From: Gimesia fumaroli
Lineage (GTDB): Bacteria > Planctomycetota > Planctomycetia > Planctomycetales > Planctomycetaceae
Length of the DNA stretch: 64,000 nt
NCBI RefSeq assembly: GCF_007754425.1
Contig: NZ_CP037452.1
Location: forward strand, 6,179,164 to 6,243,163
Direction: 5' to 3'
The translations under genes and the position numbers were made by a program. This document shows, one piece after another, positions 564-795 of this stretch; position 1 is the stretch's first letter, and each line of letters opens with the position of its first letter. The notes beneath the pieces were generated by a model that saw only the letters and a list, made by a program, of their open reading frames with translations, made no database searches and was not told where the DNA came from.

Positions 564-642
564 AAACTAAAGCCTGTGTTCTAGTTGGAGCTACAAACCG
601 ATGAAGAAACAGGGAGTTTATCCAAGAAAAGGAGGTGATTGA

Positions 643-684
643 GTGGACAGTTATTGTTGTAGCCAGAAAGGTGGTTGTTCTTAG
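643..684 (+). CDS. Putative 13-residue Cys-rich micro-ORF
   Basis: A GTG codon at 643 follows a complete Shine-Dalgarno match (AAGGAGGTGA, ending at 638) at ideal spacing. It opens a frame reading VDSYCCSQKGGCS (start read as Met) before TAG at 682-684. Three of 13 residues are Cys. The ORF lies wholly inside the structured RNA, whose closing stem would mask its ribosome site. It may encode a real tiny peptide, or the SD-like stretch may only be one side of the RNA stem. I recognise no family. Confidence 0.35.
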   Translation: MDSYCCSQKGGCS

Positions 685-754
685 CGACTACTGGCGGGTT
701 GTCATCGACAACCACCACTCGTGAGGATCACCTCGATCCTAACGAAAATTGAAC

Positions 755-795
755 AGAGGCTGACTTGCCTGAGCGTAGGTCAGCCTCTCTTTTTT
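755..795 (+). terminator. Strong intrinsic terminator of the small RNA
   Basis: AGAGGCTGAC (755-764) pairs perfectly with GTCAGCCTCT (779-788), followed by C and six T (790-795). It points along the plus strand, where the only upstream transcript is the putative structured RNA or ppk1 read-through. Confidence 0.85.

Follow-up and report, generated by a model that had tools for sequence, protein, structure and literature searches.

A free-standing gene of approximately 260 nt is predicted at about 533–795 on the forward strand of the window, the 64,000-nucleotide stretch of the Gimesia fumaroli genome analysed here, and its RNA product recurs across much of the planctomycete phylum. Comparison of homologs shows the gene unit, five helices (P1–P5), selection on the frame of a tiny internal ORF, a pronounced codon bias and a narrow spacing between the stop codon and P4. 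The RNA probably works by letting the ribosome alter its shape. The explanation that we tentatively prefer, with less than even confidence, is a free-standing, ribosome-gated regulatory RNA in which translation of the mini-ORF would set the fold. A broader and more speculative form of this proposal describes a stand-alone translation sensor of Planctomycetota, a new and ancient class of regulatory RNA with an output in trans that the progress and termination of the ribosome would determine via the fold, and a disposable mini-ORF whose peptide is unconserved. The sequence-only reading had singled out the block 600–795, which is the middle of this gene, and every element that it placed there is present in the window sequence. 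The conserved unit extends beyond this block, adding a promoter-like site (499–526), the hairpin P1 (541–563) and the stem P2 (573–613).

A DNA search of 59 genomes located the block in 19, namely its own genome, all 16 others of the same genus and two more, one from another genus of the same family and one from another family of the class. The covariance model R1 matched 164 of the 297 class genomes. The second model, R2, which represents the core of the RNA and was built from 86 homologs, matched 227 of the 297, distributed over 120 of 155 genera, with one match per genome except for one genome with two; the lack of an R2 match in 70 of the 297 counts against the ribosome gate. In the scan of 392 genomes of the phylum, 63 were matched by R2, and 27 of these belong to other classes and score less well (E-values of 1.6e-6 to 7.3e-4); with the cut of 0.001 per genome, about one false match is expected among the 392. 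Twenty of the 27 out-of-class loci were examined by script, and all 20 possess a Shine-Dalgarno (SD) sequence, a start codon and a short ORF with its stop. The exact pattern AAAGGAGGTGATC-N34-63-CCGACGGG occurs at 57 places in the GTDB contig collection, 55 of them in planctomycete-titled records, where the short ORF is present in 55 of 55; the genomes of this search overlap partly with the 297 of the R2 scan. One of the other two pattern places (L275) proved to be where a longer, ordinary frame begins. Another (L265, 1345–1417, reverse strand), situated in a record titled as a Proteobacteria MAG, contains a similar SD, a short ORF and CCGACGGG with a weak R2 match (E 0.0018), and could stem from misbinning of a planctomycete or from a transfer. 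The viral collection IMG/VR also includes a contig (IMGVR_UViG_3300038435_000063) on which a good copy of the RNA occurs (L287, 7847–7937, forward strand; 55.8 bits), with the ORF VCSGKQVRLL. Judged by these searches, a large part of the planctomycete phylum retains the RNA, usually as a single copy in each genome. Few RNAs are known to persist as solitary, free-standing genes throughout much of a bacterial phylum, and the known cases, tmRNA, 6S, RNase P and SRP RNA, perform core jobs.

The predicted fold of region 533–795 has an energy of -96.3 kcal/mol, compared with a mean of -69.6 (sd 5.0) kcal/mol in dinucleotide shuffles (z = -5.3), and 0 of 200 shuffles fold as well. At the 5' end, hairpin P1 (forward strand, as are all helices described here) carries ACG in its loop; 97.8% of its cells are paired versus 79.2% in shuffles, with two-sided changes in 7 of 7 pairs, among 52 homologs picked by hand from the first 75 of 104 loci whose hairpin was found by a stem search. 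Stem P2 consists of 573–577 with 609–613 and 585–588 with 598–601, showing two-sided changes in 9 of 9 pairs and 90–92% of cells paired. Helix P3 (670–716) links GGTGG in the last codons of the mini-ORF (670–674) with CCACC (712–716); across 100 homologs, 94.3% of its cells are paired and two-sided changes occur in 5 of 5 pairs, and in locus L079 the helix reads GGGGAAGC/GCTTCCCC. Hairpin P4 (699–711) is formed by 699–703 with 707–711, with 96.7% of cells paired and two-sided changes in 5 of 5 pairs. Hairpin P5 (719–745), with the loop ACCTC, is composed of 719–722 with 742–745 and 724–729 with 735–740, and its 10 pairs all show two-sided changes, with 86–97% of cells paired in the 100 homologs.

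Taken together, P2–P5 have 91.8% of cells paired versus 74.4% in shuffles, two-sided changes in 29 of 29 pairs and a covariation score of 0.425 versus 0.166, figures that lean towards the model since the 100 rows of alignment A3 were fitted to one already holding P2, P4 and P5. P3 was outside that model and is therefore the least biased of the four. Sliding the helix partners abolishes the P2–P5 covariation signal. The five covarying helices bear out the earlier claim of a conserved structured RNA. The sequence-only reading would have been abandoned had the block been confined to the strain or its stems been broken in relatives without compensating change; the covariance-model search that it proposed revealed wide conservation, in the class and in the 27 genomes beyond it, and stems are kept by compensating change, mostly in helices other than those it had stressed.

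Two mutually exclusive inner pairings had also been proposed. The 698–712 hairpin survives as P4, and of the alternative pairing between GGTGGTTGT (670–678) and ACAACCACC (708–716), the GGTGG/CCACC part survives as P3. The remaining hairpin, in which GCCAG (662–666) faces CTGGC (691–695) in the window, is weak: it pairs in 65.8% of cells versus 64.9% in shuffles, and one of its pairs fails in 77 of the 99 sequences, although two-sided changes affect somewhat more cells than in shuffles (24 versus 18.7). This hairpin is unsupported as a feature of the family. Judged by eye, a further alternation, in which the P3 3' strand pairs either with the end of the ORF or with a GAGGTGG copy within the SD, is possible in many members of the window's family but not in others. 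The linker motif GRCGGGY (CTGGCGGG in the window, 691–698, forward strand) is present in 78 of 81 model-found homologs. It could pair, wobbles allowed, with GCCCGUC, the universal 16S decoding-site segment (E. coli 1401–1407); at only 7 nt, such a match is likely due to chance. If true, it would form, along with the SD, two contacts to the 16S 3' domain.

The mini-ORF (VDSYCCSQKGGCS, 643–684, forward strand) begins with GTG and terminates with TAG at 682–684, and the claim that this 13-codon frame is real has held up. Of 123 distinct cores, 122 have their first frame-0 stop in the expected interval, 8–35 nt upstream of the last base of the CGGG motif; in the shifted frames the counts are 12 and 8. 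These cores derive from 140 loci, comprising 85 of the 86 rows of alignment A4 (itself 86 of the 100 rows of A3) and 55 of the 57 pattern places, with L265 and L275 omitted; the pattern search made no use of the reading frame. The distance from the stop to the end of the CGGG motif is 14–22 nt in 122 of 123 cores, with a mode of 17 in 50. In all 123 cores a start codon lies 9–18 nt after GGAGG; the script takes the first one in this range and chance often supplies one, yet 90 of the 123 sit at an offset of 12. In another comparison, covering 139 loci, 5 gave no SD match, four with a C inserted in the SD and one with GGGGGT. The start codons comprise 93 GTG, 17 TTG and 13 ATG, an unusual dominance of GTG, and the length ranges from 10 to 18 codons. 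As indicated by this comparison, the reading frame of the mini-ORF is under selection.

The front part of the ORF displays a strong in-frame bias, with counts in frames 0, 1 and 2 of 98, 2 and 10 for TGT, 86, 3 and 1 for AGT, and 51, 1 and 1 for GAC; UGU and AGU are far over their usual share. TGT supplies 111 of 134 Cys codons in the ORF fronts versus 29% in neighbouring ORFs. Among 50 representatives less than 60% identical, the fronts contain 13.5% Cys, 26.9% Ser and 12.4% Asp; the values in 122 neighbouring ORFs are 0.9%, 6.1% and 6.0%. Cys is present in 101 of 141 distinct ORFs, a set that includes L165 and L166, whose assigned upstream TTG start is probably wrong and which were excluded from the codon-bias set. 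Because 40 of the 141 have no Cys, no single codon is a fixed sensor. Meanwhile, the peptide drifts; its composition is kept, and its exact sequence is kept only within the genus, with no conservation beyond related genera. The suggested Cys-rich peptide thus stands as a frequent composition and falls as a conserved sequence. In two families the 3' part of the ORF is read in another frame, with the P3 nucleotides unchanged. The count of synonymous changes that had been advised gave an excess in both halves, 30 of 143 single changes in the front (21% versus 13% expected) and 70 of 136 in the back (51% versus 31%), from close pairs that are not independent; some selection on the peptide is therefore possible.

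From this arrangement we infer transcription, translation, melting of P3, codon sensing and an output. Transcription would run from the gene's own promoter to its terminator and include no other gene, and a complement of almost the whole 16S 3' end would load the ribosome onto a 10–15-codon mini-ORF in which Ser, Cys and Asp codons abound. The final codons of this mini-ORF constitute the 5' strand of P3, and the stop codon is located approximately 17 nt before P4, so that a ribosome reaching the stop would melt P3 and halt against P4. By geometry, such a ribosome would extend to the foot of P4, covering the 5' strand of P3 and some of the GRCGGG motif. With the ribosome absent or stalled upstream, P3 would stay formed. 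Translation of the mini-ORF would then decide between two or more states, in the manner of a leader-peptide attenuator. Such a device with no downstream gene would be expected to have its output in trans, via the freed C-rich P3 strand and the GRCGGG motif, or in the stability of the RNA itself. Wide and mostly single-copy conservation amid changing neighbours, the covarying helices P1–P5, a frame that is kept, a stop held within a narrow distance of the CGGG motif, the in-frame codon bias, the extended SD, a drifting peptide and a P3 retained under a change of frame favour the ribosome gate; the ORFs that contain no Cys weigh against it, and so does the synonymous excess in both ORF halves, which also fits selection on the peptide.

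This excess is shared ground with the main rival, a micro-mRNA whose Ser/Cys/Asp-rich peptide is the product, with for instance a metal- or thiol-related role, and whose fold serves expression and stability. The selected frame (122 of 123 cores), the in-frame amino-acid bias, the extended SD and the Cys found in 101 of 141 ORFs are all consistent with a micro-mRNA. It is nevertheless rather unlikely, for the peptide drifts in sequence and in length (10 to 18 codons), 40 of the 141 ORFs do without Cys, the C-terminal part follows P3 and switches frame between families, and the covariation of P1, P2, P4 and P5 falls outside the ORF.

The extended SD (627–640, forward strand) has long complementarity to the 16S 3' end. 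In 78 of 81 homologs, a figure that leans towards the covariance models because these contain the SD, the region pairs at least 10 contiguous bases, wobbles allowed, with an assumed 16S tail, this genome's own 16S 3' end having escaped two search patterns; the same pairing occurs at 1 of 122 starts of long neighbouring ORFs. AAGGAGGTGAT at start-codon spacing is found three times in the 7.7 Mb genome, the occurrence in the RNA included. The earlier proposal of a ribosome-linked RNA is likely. One genus within the window's family has four loci (L096, L101, L103 and L123) whose SD contains an inserted C (AAAGGACGGTGA). The near-complete complement of the assumed 16S tail and its rarity in the genome would also suit a ribosome sponge or 30S sensor, in which the extended SD binds small subunits tightly and the mini-ORF merely holds them. 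We regard this as improbable, as it leaves the codon bias, the stop-to-P4 spacing and P3 unexplained and sits poorly with the base inserted in the SD in that genus.

In the window, GAGGTGAT (632–639) exactly complements ATCACCTC (727–734), as the sequence-only reading had stated, which took covariation of these pairs in relatives as support for an RNA. Among 100 homologs the stem does not covary, with 80.9% of cells paired versus 80.3% in shuffles and 79 of 500 shuffles as high. The downstream region pairs its own SD over 5.39 bases and the SDs of other members over 5.30 (118 distinct loci, from 126 of 134 used). Furthermore, P5 excludes this stem, and P5 covaries and the stem does not. The SD/anti-SD stem is thus rejected as a feature of the family; within the genus, where 6–8 contiguous pairs are kept (7 distinct rows), it may form. 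Meanwhile, the downstream region is more complementary to the SD than shuffled sequence (5.39 versus 4.64; higher in 88 of 118), and the window's P5 loop, ACCTC, has counterparts of similar sequence in many homologs. Both points would agree with an antisense RNA acting in trans, through pairing of its C-rich P5 loop or P3 3' strand with the Shine-Dalgarno sequences of other mRNAs. The P5 loop is variable, with no complementarity to the SD in many families, and the mini-ORF would remain unexplained, leaving this explanation with quite a low probability.

The promoter-like site on the forward strand contains TTGCCT and AAAAAT separated by 16 nt (8 of 12 positions of the sigma70 consensus), and we infer a transcription start near 533. 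Among 113 homologous upstream regions, the mean best sigma70-like score is 7.65 versus 6.53 in shuffles, and 20% versus 3% reach a score of at least 9. The perfect 10-bp terminator recognized earlier is confirmed as an intrinsic terminator (755–795, forward strand), in which 755–764 pairs with 779–788 ahead of a T run, and terminator-like sites lie downstream in 63 of 81 homologs versus 12 of 81 in shuffles. The RNA is flanked in the window by a frame ending at 305, presumably the end of a polyphosphate kinase, and by the next long frame, a convergent one on the opposite strand (2183–885), presumably a Gfo/Idh-type oxidoreductase. Over 41 contexts (the window and 40 loci, each of the latter with flanks of up to 3 kb), there is no consistent neighbour, downstream gene or strand, and related flanking ORFs form clusters of at most 6 members. 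Together with the upstream sigma70-like signal and the terminator-like sites, this makes a free-standing gene, running from its own putative promoter to its own terminator, the most likely arrangement. A cis attenuator or riboswitch of a downstream gene, to which the leader-ORF and terminator anatomy would correspond, is close to refuted by the opposite-strand frame and the 41 contexts; on this context the RNA is rejected as a leader, in agreement with the earlier remark that nothing downstream explains it as one. A second 13-codon frame (601–642, MKKQGVYPRKGGD) is not conserved, as the distant homologs L018 and L019 lack an ATG at this place.

At the gathering score, no Rfam 15 family matches the RNA, either in the window or in ten loci that contain divergent homologs; a permissive scan gave only weak, sub-threshold matches at chance level, starting beyond 779. 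Among the open-access papers listed in literature searches, none describes this RNA in its title or the start of its abstract. The closest likeness is to leader-peptide attenuators. In the case of ilvB1 of M. tuberculosis, PMC13236596 states that a ribosome at the leader stop codon masks about 26 nt and blocks pairing, and it cites Canestrari 2020 for the polycysteine short ORFs of mycobacteria; in both, a short ORF of biased codons precedes helices that depend on the position of the ribosome. On sequence comparison, the frame selection and the P3/P4 geometry fit such an anatomy, a short ORF before alternative helices. Unlike these attenuators, the RNA described here is free-standing, controls no adjoining downstream gene recognizable in the 41 contexts, is phylum-wide and has no fixed regulatory codon. 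Dual-function or coding small RNAs (PMC5521070) likewise have their own terminator and a short ORF in a small RNA; here, by contrast, the peptide is conserved within the genus only, and it is the frame, the stop position and the fold that are kept. The RNA also differs from small RNAs with a C-rich anti-SD loop, as its loop varies and its own SD is paired no better than swapped ones. With tmRNA it shares a structured fold, a single gene copy and a tiny frame inside the RNA, but it has its own start codon and SD, and no tRNA-like domain was found; neither ARAGORN nor Rfam detects a tmRNA in the window, and an ordinary tmRNA lies elsewhere, over the cut-off (G000, 2694904–2695260). The extended-SD uORF leaders of Staphylococcus aureus share the extended SD pairing and a small amino-acid-sensing ORF, but control a downstream gene in cis (PMC13009471). 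The Rhodopirellula-1 motif of PMC2864571 is a predicted RNA motif that includes planctomycetes, but it is listed there as probably cis-regulatory, of ambiguous RNA status and also present in Proteobacteria; despite these differences, the two could still be identical. What is new here is a candidate ribosome reader that stands as a gene of its own and persists across much of a phylum.

Comparison alone thus reveals selection on a fold, on a tiny frame and on the stop-to-helix spacing, despite a drifting peptide. If the preferred ribosome-gated explanation is true, the RNA would be an attenuator-like reader of the ribosome detached from any gene, and would offer a concrete way into the control of translation in bacteria of a phylum with little-explored RNA biology, with predictions that can be tested in cultured planctomycete species.
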